DNA from: Micromonospora sp. DSM 45708
Lineage (GTDB): Bacteria > Actinomycetota > Actinomycetes > Mycobacteriales > Micromonosporaceae
Direction of reading: 5' to 3'
NCBI RefSeq assembly: GCF_039566955.1
Contig: NZ_CP154796.1
Coordinates: 5,456,001-5,520,000 of the forward strand
Length of the DNA: 64,000 nt
Part shown: piece after piece, positions 6,757-21,379 of the stretch
Numbering within the stretch: position 1 is the first letter of the stretch
Layout: each line of letters opens with the position of its first letter
Notes under the pieces: model-generated
Databases searched by the model: none
What the model was told of the DNA's origin: nothing
What the model saw: only the letters and a program-made list of their open reading frames with translations
Program-made: the position numbers and the translations under genes

Positions 6757-7506
6757 TCAGCCCCGGTCGCCGTCCGCCGCGAGGGCCCGACGGCAGAGCT
6801 GGTCGGCCGTCCGGGTGGTCTCCGGCAGCCGGTACCGGGGCGTCAGAGCCAGTACCCGCTCCACCGCCTCGTCCAACCCGATCCGGTGCCCGACACTGAC
6901 GAAGACCGGCCGGACCCCGTCCCGGGTACGCAGCACCCGCCCCACCACCTCCTCCCCGTCACGCAGGTCGGCCCGGTCGCCGCGCCGCGGGCCCGGCCCG
7001 GCCCACGAACCGACCAGCGGCGTCTTGCCCACCCCGATCGTCGGCAGCCCGGTCACCAGACCCAGGTGACAGGCCAGCCCGAACCGGCGCGGATGCGCCA
7101 CCCCGTGCCCGTCGCACACCAGCAGCTCCGGGCGGACGGTCAGCCGCTCCAGCGCGGTGAGCAGCGCCGGCATCTCCCGGAAGGCGAACAACCCCGGCAC
7201 GTACGGGAACGCCGGCCGCCCCACGCACACCGCCTCGTCCACCACGGTCAGGGTGGCCGCGTCCAACACCGTGACGGCCGCCGCGAGCCGGTCACCGCTC
7301 TCCGCGTACGCGACGTCCAGCCCGGCCACCGTCGCGGGCGCACTCGGACCGGGCCCGACCAGGTCGACCCGGGCCCGCAACTCCTCCTGTACGCGCAGCG
7401 CCTCCGCCGCGTCGGCCGGCGGCCGGTACGGGAGCCCCTCCGCCAGCGGCCCGGCCTGCGGCGCACCCGGGTTCCCCCCGGGGCGCGCGGGGTCGACGCG
7501 CTTCAC
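6757..7506 (-). CDS. nfi: Endonuclease V (deoxyinosine 3'-endonuclease)
   Basis: DNA repair nuclease that nicks next to deoxyinosine made by adenine deamination. 249 residues with all family blocks: GLDVAYA with the first catalytic Asp, PYVPGLFAFREMP with the wedge and catalytic Glu, LLVCDGHGVAHPRR with the second Asp, GVGKTPL and PVFVSVGHR. The GTG start overlaps the stop of the upstream DinB-like gene (GTGA), so the two are translationally coupled. An N-terminal extension of about 25 residues rich in Pro and Gly precedes the domain, so the true start might lie inside. Confidence 0.94.
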   Translation of the reverse strand: MKRVDPARPGGNPGAPQAGPLAEGLPYRPPADAAEALRVQEELRARVDLVGPGPSAPATVAGLDVAYAESGDRLAAAVTVLDAATLTVVDEAVCVGRPAFPYVPGLFAFREMPALLTALERLTVRPELLVCDGHGVAHPRRFGLACHLGLVTGLPTIGVGKTPLVGSWAGPGPRRGDRADLRDGEEVVGRVLRTRDGVRPVFVSVGHRIGLDEAVERVLALTPRYRLPETTRTADQLCRRALAADGDRG

Positions 7507-8133: not shown

Positions 8134-8586
8134 TCAGGACGCGTCGGTCGCGATGCCGGGATCGGCGCCGGGATCGCCGGCGCGCCGGAGCTGCTCCTCG
8201 AACATCACGAAGGTGCGCCGCCGGATGCCCCGGATAAGTGCCTGCTCGTGCGGCGTCGGGTAGCGACGTTCCTCACGGATGGTGTCCTCAATCCCTCGAA
8301 CGGTCTCGTAGAGCGCGAAGAGGGGACCCTCACCGCGAAGGTAGCGGCCCCGCTCCTGCTCCACGTACCAGACGAACTCGTTGCGATCGATCTCATGTAC
8401 CTCGTCGCCCCCCACGAAGAGCACCTTGTCCACGAGATTGTTCGCCGCGCGCCAGCCACCGGTATCCGGCGAGAGTCGCCAGCCGGCCGCGCCACCGCCT
8501 TCTGCCTGCACCAGCTTCAGCGGGGACTCGTAGTAAAGGAAGAATTTCGGCAGCGCCAAGCCGGGCAGATGCGTCATCGCCGTCAC
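8134..8586 (-). CDS. Candidate immunity protein for the adjacent polymorphic toxin
   Basis: 150 residues, no family recognised. It is rich in aromatic and charged residues (KFFLYYESPLKL, NEFVWYVEQERGRY) with a helical Glu/Arg-rich second half, a composition common in small toxin-neutralising proteins. It follows the 1426-residue toxin directly: its GTG overlaps the toxin stop (GTGA). An ATG three codons in (8575-8577) is an alternative start. Position immediately 3' of a polymorphic toxin is the normal place for its immunity gene, so this role is inferred from context only. A hypothetical protein unrelated to immunity cannot be excluded. Confidence 0.65.
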   Translation of the reverse strand: MTAMTHLPGLALPKFFLYYESPLKLVQAEGGGAAGWRLSPDTGGWRAANNLVDKVLFVGGDEVHEIDRNEFVWYVEQERGRYLRGEGPLFALYETVRGIEDTIREERRYPTPHEQALIRGIRRRTFVMFEEQLRRAGDPGADPGIATDAS

Positions 8587-11500
8587 AGCCCTCCCAGCCC
8601 ACCCTGCAAGGCATCCCAGTAGATGCCCTGGGCCCGCCTCAGAAGGCCATCCCGAACCGCTGTCTCGAACGTCGTCAACGGTCGATGATCCAACTCTGCC
8701 AATGCTTCCAGATCTCGCCTGACCTCATAGAGCGCATGTTCCCACCCAGCTACATCCTCCATGGCGGCAAGGTGCAGGCGCAGCTCCCCCACATGCCCGT
8801 TCGAGAGGTTCAGATTCAACAAGATATCTCGGTAACCGCTGCTCTGGGGCGAGACAAAGCGGTCCTTGATGTCCATGACCAACACATCGGGACGATCAGC
8901 CAGAGCAGCCAGCGCGCCATAGATGTCACCAAGCGTGGCGAACTCCACCTTGGCTCCCGCCAGGTCTTTCAGGCGGGCGGCGTTGTTCCCGTACTCGGCC
9001 AACTTGTCCGTCACGCGTTTGCGGCTCTTGGGCTCGCTACGCCAACCCGGCTTGCCGGTCTCGCCCGCGATCGTGCTCGCGATGTGGTTCAGCTCCAACT
9101 GAGCCACCGCTGCGTCGGCATACAACCGATCGACGTACTCGCTGAGATAGATCGGGTCGTTCTTCCGGTCCTGCTCGAAGCCGGCTTGCTGAGCCAGCTG
9201 CCTCCGAGATGCCACCGCCCGAGTAAGGCGGCGTTGTTCGGCGGTCAGTGGGGTCGGAACGGGATCCCGATCCCCGAGAATCAAAAAGGCGTCCGGCCCA
9301 TTGCTCTCGATCTCCCGCACCACGTCGCCGAGGACGTCGATGGCCTGTTGGTGGCTGGCGAGATGGTGCAGGGTCACCGGCCTGGCGGTCAGCGAGTTGG
9401 CAAGCTCCGGCGTCGCCAGGATCATCCGAACCAGGTCGGGACGCTCCGCGAGCTGCCGCACGAGCGTCTCGGCCAGCAACTCCTCCCGCCGTGGCGGCGC
9501 CTCCCAGCTCTGGTCGAGCATCCGCTGCACGCGCGGGTCGGCGAAGAGCCGGTTCAGATCACCGGCCGCCGCCTCGTCCAGCCCCGGCACGAGCCGTCGC
9601 AACGTCGGCCCGTCGGCGTGCTGCGCCAACTCGACCGGGGTCACCCCGGCGGCGAAGGCGTCGGTCAGGCTGCCGCTCGCCGCCAGCGCGTCCCGGACGT
9701 AGAGCCCGGCGGCGATCCGGGCGGCGTGGGCCTCACGGTGTGCCCTGCGTACCCGATCGGGTGCCGGCTCGGCCGGGGGCGCGCCGCCCGGGAACGGGGT
9801 GCCCGGCGGGCGGTGGAAGGTGGTGGACTCGCCGAGCAGGTGGACGCGGTTGAAGTCGGGCGTAGGACCGTGGTCGCGCGGCGGCGGGTCGGGCGGTCGG
9901 GGCGGCGCCGGACGGTGTCGTGGCTCGGGCAGCGCGTTGTAGTCGCCGGGCGGCCGGCCGGTGAGCGGCATCGGCCGGCCGTCCGGGCCGAGGACCAGGG
10001 CGTCCACATCCACCACGTTGCCGTCGAACGGGACCCCGCTGTGCCGGTAGAGCGGCTGGCCCGCCACCACCCCGCTCTGCGGGTCGAGGTAGAGCACCGT
10101 GCCGTTCTGGTTGAGCGCCACCCAGGCGTGCGAGCCACCGCCCTCGAAGCTGGTGATGAGGAAGGCGTAGCTGCCGTGACCGCCCGACGTCAGTTGCGCG
10201 TGCAGGTCGCGGTAGCCACGCTCGACCAGCCGTCGCCGGGCCTCACCGGTCACCCCGGCGCGGTCGGGCGCGCACAGCTTCTGGAACCGTCCTCCGGTCG
10301 TCTCCTCGACCCGCAGCGGACCGTCGATCTCGCCGCCGACCGGCCGGCGGACGTCGCCCGCCAGATAACCGTCGAAGGTACGCGGCGCGGCGACCCGCGG
10401 CCGACCGTGCACCCACGTCTCGAAGAAGGACAGCGTGCAGTCGAGGCAGTTGATGCCCCGGGTCGCGTCGGCGGCCGGGCCACCGTCGTTGGACAGCCGG
10501 AACCAGTCTCCCCGCCGCGGGTCGGCGGTCCGGACCACGCTGCCGTCGGGGTTGCGGGGCATCTGCCGTTCGAGGTCGGTCTGGTGCAGCGCGAGCGGCG
10601 GCCGGAGCCCACCACGCCGGCCGTAGGGGCGGGACCGGTCGACCGGCGGTGGGTGACCGTGGCCGGTGAGCGCGGAGTGGTCGGCCGTCTCCACCGCGCC
10701 GAGGGCGAGGTCCGCCACGTCGTCGTTGATCCGGTAGAAGTCGAGGTCGTCCTCGACCATCACCCGATCCGGTACGAGTTTGCCGGCGAGCACGTGCCGC
10801 GCCTCCGCGCGCAACTCCGACGCCTCCAGGTCGGCCTCATGCGCTTCTCGGTGCCAACGCTCCGCGGCGAGCGTCCGCCCCGAACGGCGTAGCTCCATCG
10901 CCTGCGCCGCCCAGTCACTCGCCCGTTCCTCGTGGTAGTCAGCGCGTTCATTGAGCCAGTCCGCCCGGGTCTGACGTCGGCGGTCCTCGAACCAGTCCCG
11001 CTGGGATCGCAGGTAGCCCTGATAGCGGCGTCGGTCGAGGGCCTCCCGGTCCGCGATCAGACGCGCGGCCCGCTTGCGCGGGGTTTCGCGGTTGGGAGGC
11101 GGCGGACCGAGCGGATTGGGGACGCTCGGCGGTGGACTCGTCGAGTGCTGTGGCGCCAACGTCTCCAGCAGCGGGAAACGGGGGCTCGGCACGGGCCGCA
11201 CGTCCGGCCCGAGACTCGTCGGCCCCGATGCCGGCGCGAATGACGGATTGGTCGCCGGAGCAGCGGGGGGCAGTGACTGCGTGACGCCGGCCGCCGTCGA
11301 CGCCCGGCCCGGAGGCACCGTCGGGTGCGGGGCCTCGGTGGCCGGCATGGTCAGCGCCGCCGAAGCCGCCGCCGGCTGCACCGAAGCCGGCTGGTGCAGC
11401 GCGCCTGCGTCGAGCGCGGACGGTGTGAGGACCTGGCCGCTGCGGACCTCGGCCGGGCCGGGTGACGCACCGGTGACCAGCGCCTCGGTGGCCACCGAGG

Positions 11501-12863
11501 ACAAGGTGGGATTCGCGGTGACGGACGAATGCGTCGGATGGCTCGTCGCGACATTCGACCCCGTCTCGCCGATGAGGGGCCGCGTCGAGGTGGTCAGCTC
11601 CGACGTCGGGTGTGCCGCGCCCACCGGGTCGAGGTGAGGTGCTGCCGCCACGGTATCGGCCAGCGCCGGGGTCGGAGCACTCGCGGCGGTGGCCGGAACC
11701 GTCCGGGAGTGGACGACCGGATCACCGCCCTGCACGGGTGGGGGCGGCTCGGCAGACCGCTGGTCCGGGACGACACCGGCCGGGCCGGGCCCGGGCGGCA
11801 CGTCCGGGCCGACCGGTGGCAGGTCCAGGCCGACCGGCGGTGCCGTGAGGCCGCCCAGCTTCCCGTCGAGCCGGTGATGCAGCGCCGTCTCGGTCTGCCC
11901 GGTGACGGAACCGCTCGCGCCGGACGCCGCGGCACGGGCCAGGTCCTCCAGCGACGGGCCCTGGCCGGTGGCCAGCCCGGCTGCGGTCTCGGCGAGGCTC
12001 TCGCCGGCCATCTCGCGCCCGAAGCGCTCCCCGATCTGCGCGAACCGCCCGCTCGCGTGCCGGCCCAGGCCGGCGAGCGGCGCGACCGCGCCGCCGGCGA
12101 AGCCCCCGAGCCCCGACGCGCCCACGTCGGTCAGGTCGAGGCCGTTCCGGCGGCCGGTGGAGTTCTGGTACGCCTGGGTGGCCAGGCTGGTGCCCGCTTC
12201 CTGCCCGGCCTCCGCCAGGCCGCCGAGCACCGCCTTGCGGGCGAGCCCCCGGGCACCGCTCTTGACCGCTTCCTTCGCGGCCCGTTCGCCGGCCTCCTTC
12301 AGGCCTTCCTTGACCGCCTTGCGGGCCAGTTGGGCCACCAGCCGCTTGAAGATCTGTTGCACGGCGATCCGGGTGGCGGTGATCGCGGCTCCGGCCGCCG
12401 GTGACGCCGCACCGAGCGTGAGCACGGTGACCACCGCGAGGGACAGCAGTTCGACGACGAGGATGCCCAGCTCGATCCAGGCTTCCAGCTTCGCGCCCTC
12501 GATGTCGCAGCCGCAGGAGTCGACCAGCCGCCCCAACTCGTCGGTGGCCGCCAGGAGGGCGTGCAGCGGTGCGTCCTCGCCCCCGGCCACCTTGTCCCAG
12601 GCCGTGTCGAAGGCGTGTGCCACCAGGCCGACCCCGCCGTAGCCGCTCTTCACCTCGCCGGCGGCGGTGGTGGCCTCGTCGCGCGGGCCGGCCAGGACGC
12701 CGGCGACGCCGTACCACTGGTCGGCCAGGTCCCAGACGGCGCGCTCGTTGCCCTCGGGCCATTCCACGCCGACCACCCAGTCGAGCGCCTCGTAGATCCA
12801 GCCGGGCACGTCCCAGGGGCAGTAGTCGAGCGGGTGCGGGATCGGGCTGGGCAGCATGCTCAC
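8583..12863 (-). CDS. Polymorphic toxin: WXG100-like N-terminus, papain-fold (Tox-PL) domain and C-terminal RelA/SpoT-like domain
   Basis: 1426 residues, probably exported by an ESX/type VII route. In order: a helical WXG100-like trafficking region (about 1-130), hydrophobic and Ala-rich helices (130-340), a long Pro/Ala/Thr-rich low-complexity linker (350-600), a charged coiled region (600-700), a papain-fold toxin 1 domain (about 760-960) with NCLDC (Cys806), GSHAWVAL (His912) and YLDPQSG (Asp927), a Pro-rich spacer, and a C-terminal domain (about 1240-1426) resembling alarmone synthetases: KDLAGAK (Asp1300), KDRF (1333-1336), SGYRD (Tyr1344) and GELRLH (Glu1360). The Asp-Tyr and Tyr-Glu spacings match those I recall for RelA synthetase active sites. 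Overlaps the candidate immunity gene by four bases. Confidence 0.85.
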   Translation of the reverse strand: MSMLPSPIPHPLDYCPWDVPGWIYEALDWVVGVEWPEGNERAVWDLADQWYGVAGVLAGPRDEATTAAGEVKSGYGGVGLVAHAFDTAWDKVAGGEDAPLHALLAATDELGRLVDSCGCDIEGAKLEAWIELGILVVELLSLAVVTVLTLGAASPAAGAAITATRIAVQQIFKRLVAQLARKAVKEGLKEAGERAAKEAVKSGARGLARKAVLGGLAEAGQEAGTSLATQAYQNSTGRRNGLDLTDVGASGLGGFAGGAVAPLAGLGRHASGRFAQIGERFGREMAGESLAETAAGLATGQGPSLEDLARAAASGASGSVTGQTETALHHRLDGKLGGLTAPPVGLDLPPVGPDVPPGPGPAGVVPDQRSAEPPPPVQGGDPVVHSRTVPATAASAPTPALADTVAAAPHLDPVGAAHPTSELTTSTRPLIGETGSNVATSHPTHSSVTANPTLSSVATEALVTGASPGPAEVRSGQVLTPSALDAGALHQPASVQPAAASAALTMPATEAPHPTVPPGRASTAAGVTQSLPPAAPATNPSFAPASGPTSLGPDVRPVPSPRFPLLETLAPQHSTSPPPSVPNPLGPPPPNRETPRKRAARLIADREALDRRRYQGYLRSQRDWFEDRRRQTRADWLNERADYHEERASDWAAQAMELRRSGRTLAAERWHREAHEADLEASELRAEARHVLAGKLVPDRVMVEDDLDFYRINDDVADLALGAVETADHSALTGHGHPPPVDRSRPYGRRGGLRPPLALHQTDLERQMPRNPDGSVVRTADPRRGDWFRLSNDGGPAADATRGINCLDCTLSFFETWVHGRPRVAAPRTFDGYLAGDVRRPVGGEIDGPLRVEETTGGRFQKLCAPDRAGVTGEARRRLVERGYRDLHAQLTSGGHGSYAFLITSFEGGGSHAWVALNQNGTVLYLDPQSGVVAGQPLYRHSGVPFDGNVVDVDALVLGPDGRPMPLTGRPPGDYNALPEPRHRPAPPRPPDPPPRDHGPTPDFNRVHLLGESTTFHRPPGTPFPGGAPPAEPAPDRVRRAHREAHAARIAAGLYVRDALAASGSLTDAFAAGVTPVELAQHADGPTLRRLVPGLDEAAAGDLNRLFADPRVQRMLDQSWEAPPRREELLAETLVRQLAERPDLVRMILATPELANSLTARPVTLHHLASHQQAIDVLGDVVREIESNGPDAFLILGDRDPVPTPLTAEQRRLTRAVASRRQLAQQAGFEQDRKNDPIYLSEYVDRLYADAAVAQLELNHIASTIAGETGKPGWRSEPKSRKRVTDKLAEYGNNAARLKDLAGAKVEFATLGDIYGALAALADRPDVLVMDIKDRFVSPQSSGYRDILLNLNLSNGHVGELRLHLAAMEDVAGWEHALYEVRRDLEALAELDHRPLTTFETAVRDGLLRRAQGIYWDALQGGLGGL

Positions 12864-12881: not shown

Positions 12882-13238
12882 TCAGCGCCAGGGCCGATGC
12901 GGGTTGTGCCGTTGGTGCGGGATCTGCCCGAGGTCACGGGCGTTGCTCAGGTCCGTCTCCACGGTCGCGGTGACCGAGCGGACGACGTCCGACCCGATCC
13001 CGTCGAGCGAGCGGCCGAGCAGCTCCCACGCCCGCAGCAGCGTCTCGGCGTAGCCCTGGTAGTGCTTGTCGAACGCGGCACCGATGTCGTCCCGCCCCCA
13101 CGGTCGCCCGGCACTCGCCGCGGCGATCGGATCGCCGGTCTCCCGTCGGGCCGCCGTGACGGCCTTACCGGTCGCGGCCAGGTCGGCGCCTCCGCGCCGG
13201 GCGCGGTCCGCGTCCAGCCAGATCTCTCCCCCGGCCAC
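12882..13238 (-). CDS. WXG100-like small helical protein
   Basis: 118 residues, GTG start. Mostly helical, with the actinobacterial WXG100-superfamily features: small size, [17 protein letters not shown], a turn in the middle, and [17 protein letters not shown] in the second helix. Such proteins are ESX substrates or partners of larger toxins. It lies 18 nt before the big toxin and 3 nt after the YbaB-like gene, so the three form one operon; a role as export partner or chaperone of the toxin is inferred. Confidence 0.8.
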
Positions 13239-13733: not shown

Positions 13734-14969
13734 GTGGTGATCGAGCGACAGCAGGCCGAGCAGATCGCCTCCGTCTGGGCCCGGCGGGACTCCGACCGCC
13801 TCGGCTTCCCCTGCACGCCGGTGGTCGAGGAGTTCGACCTGGGCTACGTGGTCCTGTCCACCGTGTCCACCGAGGCGCGCGCCCTGCCCGGCGACCTGCC
13901 GACCACGGTCATCGACAAGGAGACCGGCGAGGTCTCCACCTGGCCCCGGGTGCCGGCCGCCTCGGTCGAGCAGATGTACCGGCAACGCCGGCCGGCCGAG
14001 CCGCGCGCGCCCCGCACCGTCGACCCGGCCGGGCAGTTGCTCCGTGAGCTGACCCGGCTGCCCACGCCCGGCGCCGCCGCGCACCTCACGCTGGACGGCC
14101 GGCTGCACGTGGCACACGGCGCCAAGGGCGACGTCGAGCTGCGCCATCACCCACTCGTACGGTCCTACCTCGACGAGCTGCCCGCCGGTCACCTGGTGCG
14201 GGGCGGCGACCGGCACGCGGAGGTGATCGTCGTCTCCGACGCGTTGCACGAGCACGACCACCGTCGCACCGCCGAAGGGCTTCCGCCGCTCACCGTCGAG
14301 GAGGCTCGACAGCGGTTGGGGGCGAGCCGGGTCGAGTTCTTCCGCATCCGCGAGTCCGGTGATCCCGCGGGCGGTCCGGCCGATCTACGGTGCGAGTCCT
14401 GCATCAGGTTCCTGGTGCACTTCGGCGTGCTCCCCTGGCCGGAGCTGGCATATGCCGAGGAGTGGCGTCCCGATCCGCAGACACCACCCGATTCCGAACG
14501 GTTCTCGTCCGAGGTGGCGGACGCGCTCGTGGTCGCCGGCTGGCGGCCACACTTCGGGGACGAGGTGTCGGCTGCCACCTCGGTCCGCAAGGTCACCGAG
14601 GTCCGCGGTGCGCAGCACAGCCACGCTTCCTTCCCCGCCGCCCTGGCGACGCTCACCGCCTTTCCCGGGCTGGTGAGTGCGCGGCAGGGCCCTGGCGAAG
14701 CGGTGTGGATCTCCCGCTTCGAGGTGCGTCCGCGCAAGGTCGCGCACACCGCCGACACCCTCGCCGACTTCGGCGCGGTCCTGGGCGCCCGCCTCTTCCC
14801 GTTGGGCAGCGAGCGTCAGGAGAGCATCCTCGCGGTCGACGAGCACGGCCGGGTCTTCGCGCTCGATCAGGCCGGCGAGTGGTTCCTCGGCGCCGACGTC
14901 GACGCCGCTCTCACCACGCTCCTGCTCGGTCGCGCCGCCCCCCGGGTCCGCGACGACGGCACCTGGTGA
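13734..14969 (+). CDS. YwqJ-like deaminase fused to a SUKH-3 immunity-type domain
   Basis: 411 residues in three parts. The N-terminal 100 residues (TTVIDKETGEVSTWP) resemble the region preceding YwqJ-type deaminases. The middle has the zinc-deaminase signature: RHAE (His161, Glu163) and RCESC (Cys220, Cys223). The C-terminal 170 residues resemble SUKH-3 (HTADTLADFGAVLG, LAVDEHGRVFALD, then a closing helix). SUKH proteins usually neutralise toxins and YwqJ deaminases are usually toxin tips, so the fusion is odd: it may be an immunity protein with an embedded deaminase fold or an intracellular effector. No signal peptide. Start could be the second GTG at 13737 if leaderless. Confidence 0.8.
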   Translation: MVIERQQAEQIASVWARRDSDRLGFPCTPVVEEFDLGYVVLSTVSTEARALPGDLPTTVIDKETGEVSTWPRVPAASVEQMYRQRRPAEPRAPRTVDPAGQLLRELTRLPTPGAAAHLTLDGRLHVAHGAKGDVELRHHPLVRSYLDELPAGHLVRGGDRHAEVIVVSDALHEHDHRRTAEGLPPLTVEEARQRLGASRVEFFRIRESGDPAGGPADLRCESCIRFLVHFGVLPWPELAYAEEWRPDPQTPPDSERFSSEVADALVVAGWRPHFGDEVSAATSVRKVTEVRGAQHSHASFPAALATLTAFPGLVSARQGPGEAVWISRFEVRPRKVAHTADTLADFGAVLGARLFPLGSERQESILAVDEHGRVFALDQAGEWFLGADVDAALTTLLLGRAAPRVRDDGTW

Positions 14970-20678: not shown

Positions 20679-20990
20679 TCAGGCGATCTGCCGGAGGTCG
20701 TCGCCGTAGTCGAAGATGATCCGCAGTCTGGCGCCGAGGGCGTTGGCGTACCGACTCAGCGTCGCCACCTCGTTGACGTCGAGATCGCCGTTCTCGATCT
20801 GGCTCACCCGACCCGGCGTGACCCCCATGATCTCGGCGACCTGCCGCTGGGTGAGCCCCAACCGCTTGCGCTCCTCGGCCAGGTGGAAGGCGCTCACCCA
20901 GGCCTCGGTCCGGGCGCGCTCCTGCGCGTACGCCTCGTCGTCGCCGCCGAGTTCGGCGCGGACCTCGTCCCAGTCGTGGAACTCCGTCAC
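20679..20990 (-). CDS. HigA-like helix-turn-helix antitoxin
   Basis: 103 residues, GTG start. Central XRE helix-turn-helix (EERKRLGLTQRQVAEIMGVTPGRVSQIENG) followed by a short helical tail (ANALGARLRIIFDYG). Such proteins neutralise HigB/Gp49-type toxins and bind the operon promoter as dimers. The gene follows the toxin gene and overlaps it by four bases (GTGA), giving the toxin-first order of HigBA systems. Confidence 0.85.
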   Translation of the reverse strand: MTEFHDWDEVRAELGGDDEAYAQERARTEAWVSAFHLAEERKRLGLTQRQVAEIMGVTPGRVSQIENGDLDVNEVATLSRYANALGARLRIIFDYGDDLRQIA

Positions 20991-21379
20991 GACTCCCCCC
21001 TTCGTTCCCGTTCATTGTCGAGCCAGGCCTTGTAGGCGATCTCCGCCGCCGGGATGTTCCGCTGGTACCAGCGGCTCCAGTCGCCCGCCTTGTTGCCGGC
21101 GACCAACAGGACGGCCTGGGACCACGGGTCGAAGACGAACAGCACCCGGATCGCCACCTCACGGCCGGAGCGGGGGCGCAGCTCCTTGAGGTTACGGAGA
21201 TTGCTCCCGCGCAACGTGTCCACGAGGGGACGCCCCAAACCCGGCCCGACCTCGGCCAGCTTGTCCACCGCCACGCGCACGCTCTCGTAGGACGCCGGGT
21301 CGTCGTGCCGCAGGTCGCGTAGCCAGTGCCGGACCTCGCCGGTGACCCGGACCGACCACCGCTTCCCGTCAGCGCCCAT
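20987..21379 (-). CDS. HigB-like (RelE/phage Gp49 family) mRNA interferase toxin
   Basis: 130 residues. Matches the phage-derived Gp49-like/HigB pattern: VRHWLRDLRHDDPASYESV, LGRPLVDTLRGSNLRNLKELRP, REVAIRVLFVFDP, then LLVAGNKAGDWSRWYQRNIPAAE. RelE-fold toxins of this type cleave mRNA on the ribosome; the basic residues around KELRP and the GNK segment are the expected RNA-contact region. First gene of a toxin-antitoxin operon with the HTH antitoxin downstream. Start ATG lies 6 nt from a TATAGT -10 box, suggesting a leaderless message. Confidence 0.87.
   Translation of the reverse strand: MGADGKRWSVRVTGEVRHWLRDLRHDDPASYESVRVAVDKLAEVGPGLGRPLVDTLRGSNLRNLKELRPRSGREVAIRVLFVFDPWSQAVLLVAGNKAGDWSRWYQRNIPAAEIAYKAWLDNERERRGES

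Follow-up and report, generated by a model that had tools for sequence, protein, structure and literature searches.

A putative type VII polymorphic toxin of Micromonospora with an exchangeable alarmone-synthetase-like tip and a candidate cognate immunity protein

The window analyzed here is a stretch of 64,000 nucleotides from Micromonospora sp. DSM 45708 (contig NZ_CP154796.1, positions 5,456,001 to 5,520,000). It carries a large toxin gene (8583..12863) whose stop codon overlaps by 4 bp a small gene (8134..8586) that we named Imm1, encoding a putative cognate immunity protein of 150 amino acids (147 in an identical database copy). Both genes, and all the features of the toxin given below, lie on the minus strand. 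The initial annotation had reported the toxin frame without its strand; the frame is real, and a plus-strand orientation was rejected because of the stops it has within 8583-12863. The toxin has 1,426 amino acids from a GTG and 1,424 from the ATG at residue 3, probably the true start since an identical database copy is 1,424 amino acids long. It begins with a WXG100_2 domain (PF25547, residues 8-166, 12366..12842, Pfam E value 5.6e-24), which points to type VII targeting, and carries a papain-fold domain in its middle (PF15644, Gln_amidase/papain fold toxin 1, residues 804-931, 10071..10454, 1.1e-32). A trunk common to four classes of C-termini ends near residue 1010 (9834..9836), as delimited by the ends of BLAST matches and by an alignment of 80 loci. 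Beyond it come a helical region that accompanies T1 tips (residues 1041-1180, 9324..9743) and the T1 tip itself (residues 1181-1426, 8586..9323), with the fold of a RelA/SpoT homologue (RSH) synthetase (SYNTH). The tip includes a C-terminal helical hairpin (about residues 1366-1422, 8598..8768) homologous to the C-terminus of Imm1, where the corresponding hairpin spans residues 88-135 (8182..8325). According to sequence comparison and structural modelling, this is probably a type VII (ESX) polymorphic toxin with a constant trunk, an exchangeable RSH-synthetase tip as the likely weapon, and Imm1 as its putative cognate immunity protein.

The initial annotation had described, in a presumably ESX-exported protein of a Micromonospora-like host, a papain-fold triad and a C-terminal set of alarmone-synthetase-like residues. 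Both domains are real; besides PF15644, Pfam matches RelA_SpoT (PF04607, residues 1278-1377, E value 3.8e-6, 27.6 bits, just above the cut-off of 27), and the same scan bears out the N-terminal domain, so that a WXG/LXG-type N-terminus and a SYNTH domain (PF25547 and PF04607) occur in one protein. The sole NCBIfam match of the toxin is a GTP diphosphokinase model, far under its cut-off (E value 0.056). A homologue search yielded 451 proteins over the threshold. For the 120 best full-length homologues listed, coverage of the query is 90-100% in all but one, which reaches 58%, and every organism name given, a minority of entries lacking one, is Micromonospora, in agreement with the predicted host. 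The ten residues listed initially all stand at the positions given. We counted their conservation in 121 aligned rows, made up of 119 sequences besides the query and its copy in the database. C806, H912, D1300, R1335, and E1360 are present in all rows, D927 and D1334 in 120, F1336 in 119, and Y1344 in 116, the other five having His. Within the KDRF motif (1333-1336), the last three residues are thus conserved, but K1333 is not (K in 65 rows, E in 44, D in 8, S in 4). This near-invariance argues that neither residue set arose by chance.

The structure prediction for residues 1181-1426, a check proposed with that annotation, gave an RSH synthetase fold. D1300, Y1344, and E1360 align with the corresponding residues of YwaC; we take them to be the metal-binding Asp, the G-loop Tyr, and the catalytic Glu, respectively. 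The predicted fold is nearer to the alarmone synthetases RelP and Tas1 than to FaRel2, although fold does not settle chemistry. A T1 tip that pyrophosphorylates the 3' ends of tRNA, in the manner of FaRel2 or CapRel, instead of making free alarmones is improbable in our estimation.

Residues 1-340 and 701-1180 mostly show 0.7-0.97 identity to the query, computed in blocks of 20 residues, with dips to 0.51-0.64 in three blocks. Identity is reduced in the linkers and amounts to 0.27-0.70 beyond residue 1180. This profile is that of a constant trunk and a variable tip. The 120 best full-length hits had suggested a protein conserved across the genus and hence not polymorphic, a view rejected when a wider fetch revealed other tips. 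PF15644 matched in 144 of 160 Micromonospora genomes and the T1 tip in 89. From the listed PF15644 matches we drew 80 loci, leaving out the papain matches in giant frames: 44 T1 loci, among them that of the window (L053), and 36 non-T1 loci, namely all listed open frames of about 1,000-1,660 amino acids without a T1 hit and two others (the second copy in genome G104, and G077). Clustering of the sequences following the papain domain separated T1 (44 loci), T2 (21), T3 (5), and a class "none" (10) in which the protein stops within about 55 residues of the papain domain; as the 44 T1 loci are only part of the T1 loci, these class sizes are not frequencies. Trunk identity extends to about residue 1010 in every class. 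One trunk therefore carries exchangeable tips, with four C-terminal states.

An endonuclease V gene (6757..7506 in the window, minus strand) marks the chromosomal place. It is found downstream of 42 of the 44 T1, 18 of the 21 T2, and all five T3 toxins, indicating that these three classes mostly occupy a single place; only 2/10 "none" loci have it. On a trunk tree built by a quick method without bootstrap, the distribution of C-termini requires 25 state changes (mean of shuffled states 32.2, a value as low in 1 of 200 shuffles). T1 and "none" cluster on this tree (0/500 shuffles as low), but T2 and T3 do not (461/500 and 500/500). Genome G104 harbors two almost identical trunks, one with a T1 tip (L050) and the other with a T2 tip (L049). 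Giant frames of about 3,600-6,700 amino acids were also seen in some Micromonospora genomes (G040:C41 11519-14992, G003:C22, G026:C366, G111:C15, and others), several of which hold two or more PF15644 matches each.

The gene next to the tip is exchanged with it. Relatives of Imm1 adjoin the T1 tip in 43 of 44 loci; the remaining locus (L051) is truncated at the end of its contig. No such relative was found at the same place in the 36 non-T1 loci. A different family of about 100 amino acids (Imm2) adjoins all 21 T2 tips, and a third family (Imm3) all five T3 tips. By position and exchange, all three are putative immunity families. Imm1, which the initial annotation had passed over, belongs to no Pfam or NCBIfam family. 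Its homologue search yielded 365 proteins over the threshold; the 120 of them that were listed have no Pfam domain, and those with a name are hypothetical or uncharacterized proteins. In eight of the ten "none" loci, no gene of the Imm1, Imm2, or Imm3 family lies downstream. The tipless L033 and L037, which end at the papain domain, keep Imm3 and Imm2, apparently retained after tip loss. Extra immunity genes lie downstream in 11 loci and are mostly non-cognate copies or remnants, such as the series of Imm3, Imm2, and an Imm1 remnant in L029 or the Imm2 gene behind Imm1 in four T1 loci. These are what the displacement of tip cassettes would leave behind. In L052 (G077), a T2 toxin is followed by two Imm1 matches, and the same stretch contains a stop-bearing fragment of a T1 tip, a displaced cassette.

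Tip and immunity protein also diverge together. Distances were correlated over 43 T1 loci, with the Imm1 proteins of L059 and L062 trimmed to 150 amino acids. Imm1 distances follow those of the synthetase (rho 0.59, or 0.58 when controlled for papain) more closely than those of the papain domain (0.22, or 0.21 when controlled for the synthetase) or the WXG domain (0.26), and papain and synthetase are nearly uncoupled (0.09). The helical region 1041-1180 correlates with papain at 0.44 but with the synthetase at 0.12, and Imm1 also correlates with it (0.44). On the basis of these correlations, the synthetase and Imm1 most likely form the unit that is exchanged within T1, its border lying near residue 1181. 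It is hardly credible that the tip is a dead remnant, as might be read from its weak PF04607 score and from the decayed pieces of T1 immunity genes in some T2 and T3 loci. Its frame is open, its catalytic Asp and Glu are invariant in the 121 rows, and Imm1 has been kept and co-diverges with it.

Two matches suggest that T2 is probably a second, unlike type of alarmone synthetase. The T2 profile matches PDB 8vx3 at 3.8e-14, and one T2 tip matches the C-terminal part of the NCBIfam XopAD model at 5.2e-14, far under the cut-off for the full-length model. The Pfam matches of the 21 T2 members do not include RelA_SpoT. Treating T1 and T2 as a single family was rejected (hhalign probability 7.3 over 41 columns). 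T3 was considered as a nucleotidyltransferase, since it has a GS...DxD-like pattern known from pol-beta enzymes. However, no Pfam family was found with two T3 tips and no NCBIfam family with one, and its PDB matches are artefacts of transcription activator-like (TAL) repeats, made of summed sub-threshold repeats. T3 was left unclassified. An extra RelA_SpoT match of 83.8 bits, besides the presumed housekeeping Rel, was recorded in a 623-amino-acid frame of the genome of L002 (G000:C1 1274190-1274507, minus strand).

In the wider family, the T1 tip profile matched in 81 of 250 genomes. Weak matches in short frames were taken for ordinary small synthetases or Imm1 genes. Seven strong tips from outside the genus were fetched (L117-L123), and Imm1 directly follows the tip in all seven. 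By tblastn, the papain domain was detected in L118, L119, and L123 and not in L117, L120, L121, and L122. In Pfam scans, L120-L122 have WXG100_2 and RelA_SpoT, the latter under its cut-off in L122, and no papain family; for L117 the scan covers a neighbouring frame only, which carries a GT4-conflict domain. As Imm1-linked tips occur with no detected papain domain, tip and immunity protein do not need it.

In the search of the family genomes, the T1 tip profile itself matched Imm1 genes. Comparison of the tip and Imm1 alignments with hhalign, using 25 of the 44 T1 tips and the 43 Imm1 genes minus those of L059 and L062, whose start codons are mis-set, gave a probability of 94.5 (E value 7.7e-8, 53 columns), and 92.5 with deeper alignments. 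With hmmsearch, 37 of 41 Imm1 proteins matched at E ≤ 0.01; none of 1,025 shuffled sequences did so, the best reaching 0.041, nor did any of 41 reversed ones. Outside the genus, among proteins in neither profile, 9/9 Imm1 matched with E values of 8.1e-4 or lower, and the best value among 900 shuffles was 0.17; two of these nine (L124 and L126) had been picked by this very match and seven by the toxin tip, so that the fair count is 7/7. The predicted models have two helices at the matching place, 186-211 and 218-242 in the tip and 88-106 and 112-135 in Imm1 (predicted local distance difference test score, pLDDT, 91.7). Identity between tip and Imm1 is equal for cognate and non-cognate pairs, suggesting that the copying of the hairpin is probably older than the T1 radiation. 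No comparable homology was found for T2 and Imm2 or for T3 and Imm3. The homology covers the C-terminal hairpin of Imm1; for its N-terminal part no synthetase origin was demonstrated in these comparisons. In L124 (G257:C18), the Imm1-like domain starts a longer stretch, 416 amino acids when counted from the match up to the stop codon, and the search lists the frame with 4,171 amino acids. We put forward tentatively, and with some doubt, that Imm1 might be a toxin-derived decoy, a beta-rich domain joined to a copied tip hairpin that would block the synthetase by replacing the hairpin or its oligomer partner, and that the one trunk might be a dedicated carrier of nucleotide-transferring tips, with two types of alarmone synthetase and perhaps another nucleotidyltransferase as the third.

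The initial annotation had regarded both domains as possible active payloads. In this role, papain is less supported. Its NC-H-DxQ signature (N805-C806, H912, D927-x-Q929) is intact in the window protein, and C806, H912, D927, and Q929 are kept in the 80 loci across all four classes. No immunity gene tracking the papain domain was found in these loci. The papain domain is thus constant while tip and immunity gene exchange together and co-diverge, and the tip is most likely the weapon. A true dual effector, in which papain as a deamidase or protease in the target cell and the synthetase would both be payloads with separate immunity, is unlikely, even though the triad persists in all 80 loci, ten of them with papain as the last domain, and most Tox-PL1 versions are called toxins by Zhang et al. 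(2012; PMC3482391). The immunity genes that were found go with the tip, and "none" loci mostly have none of the three families. The candidate for a separate immunity gene would be the gene upstream (12882..13238, minus strand), which encodes 118 amino acids with no Pfam hit. It looks WXG-like by eye and is a probable export partner. Alternatively, it could serve papain as a partner or as an immunity gene, since it is matched in 77 of the 80 loci and, in other genera, lies beside two of the three papain-bearing genes and none of the four T1 genes without detected papain, the flanks searched there being short.

The distribution of this upstream gene, within and outside the genus, weighs against the tip as sole weapon, as do the ten of 80 proteins that end at the papain domain with the triad intact. 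Further points against our interpretation are the variability of K1333, the moderate Foldseek template modelling (TM) scores to single synthetases (0.42-0.53 on the query, first 28 rows), the 71 of 160 genomes without a T1 tip match (the other 89 including at least one decayed fragment, in G077), and the location of the two EccB genes of the genome, far from the locus and outside the window. The ten tipless loci also imply that papain must have a function of its own. It might act as an autoprocessing peptidase, freeing the tip by a cut near residue 1010, a possibility that falls somewhat short of an even chance and that is compatible with the tip as the weapon, since it would specify the papain role. 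In every class, papain immediately precedes the point of exchange, and such a role is proposed for internal Tox-PL1 domains in PMC3482391. However, the Pfam name designates a glutamine deamidase, and the persistence of papain in the tipless loci, together with three members of the family that have the same T1 tip and no detected papain, indicates that tip release is not its only or required task.

Under the favored interpretation, in which the synthetase tip is the weapon, the toxin would be exported by an ESX system together with the small WXG-like protein, export being suggested by the WXG100_2 domain. The tip would reach the cytoplasm of a competing cell and synthesize (p)ppGpp or (p)ppApp uncontrolled, stopping growth, and Imm1 would bind the tip and shield the producer and its kin. 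Papain, the least certain element, may process or release the tip or have another task in the trunk, and would not be a payload here.

In PMC3482391, a RelA/SpoT toxin domain is described in ESX polymorphic toxins, with Micau_0989 of Micromonospora aurantiaca as the example. The window protein shares its genus, its predicted ESX export, and its RelA/SpoT tip, and Micau_0989 is possibly an orthologue. The article also describes internal Tox-PL1 domains with the NC-H-DxQ signature found here; no cognate immunity family for the tip, single-locus tip alternation, or toxin-immunity homology came up in the passages covered. AaEAS of Amycolatopsis azurea is an alarmone synthetase exported by a type VII secretion system (mBio 2025, PMC12691689). 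This study reports 85 sequences with WXG/LXG domains among 1,369 and shows that, in Escherichia coli, the C-terminal part of AaEAS raises ppGpp and lowers viability. By its description there, AaEAS resembles the window protein in its LXG-type N-terminus, a C-terminal SYNTH domain folding with about 120 upstream residues, a targeting-factor gene upstream, and a small putative immunity gene downstream; the words papain and Micromonospora do not occur in the main text. T2 is the most frequent alternative to T1 among the loci fetched, and the structure it matches, PDB 8vx3, is named SaSAS, an exported synthetase of S. albidoflavus that we take to be SaEAS of PMC12691689. According to that study, SaEAS is Sec-exported and without an immunity gene; T2 instead is found on this trunk with Imm2. 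Tas1 (Apk1) and its immunity protein (PDB 6ox6) belong to another secretion system, type VI, and the Imm1 model has no match at E ≤ 1e-3 in PDB or in BFVD. No paper describing this toxin-Imm1 pair was found among the listings and passages covered in searches on alarmone synthetases and type VII immunity, on papain domains combined with RelA/SpoT, on polymorphic toxins of Micromonospora, and on homology between toxins and immunity proteins, which excluded subscription journals and supplements.

Upstream on the same strand, the gene after the WXG-like one has a YbaB/EbfC domain (PF02575, 13341..13589, minus strand, 2e-14). A divergent neighbour (13734-14969, plus strand) fuses a YwqJ-like deaminase toxin domain (residues 97-231) to a SUKH-3 immunity domain (257-399). 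Farther away, a Gp49-like (DUF891) gene beside a helix-turn-helix gene (20679-21379, minus strand) is a probable toxin-antitoxin pair.

With these data, what was predicted in 2012, RelA/SpoT tips on ESX toxins of Micromonospora, becomes a defined pair of putative toxin and immunity protein with tested co-exchange, and the papain domain that resides with the tip is argued to be part of the trunk. A single locus appears to switch between two unlike, probable alarmone-synthetase tips. The homologous hairpin of toxin and Imm1 makes the mechanism of inhibition directly testable.
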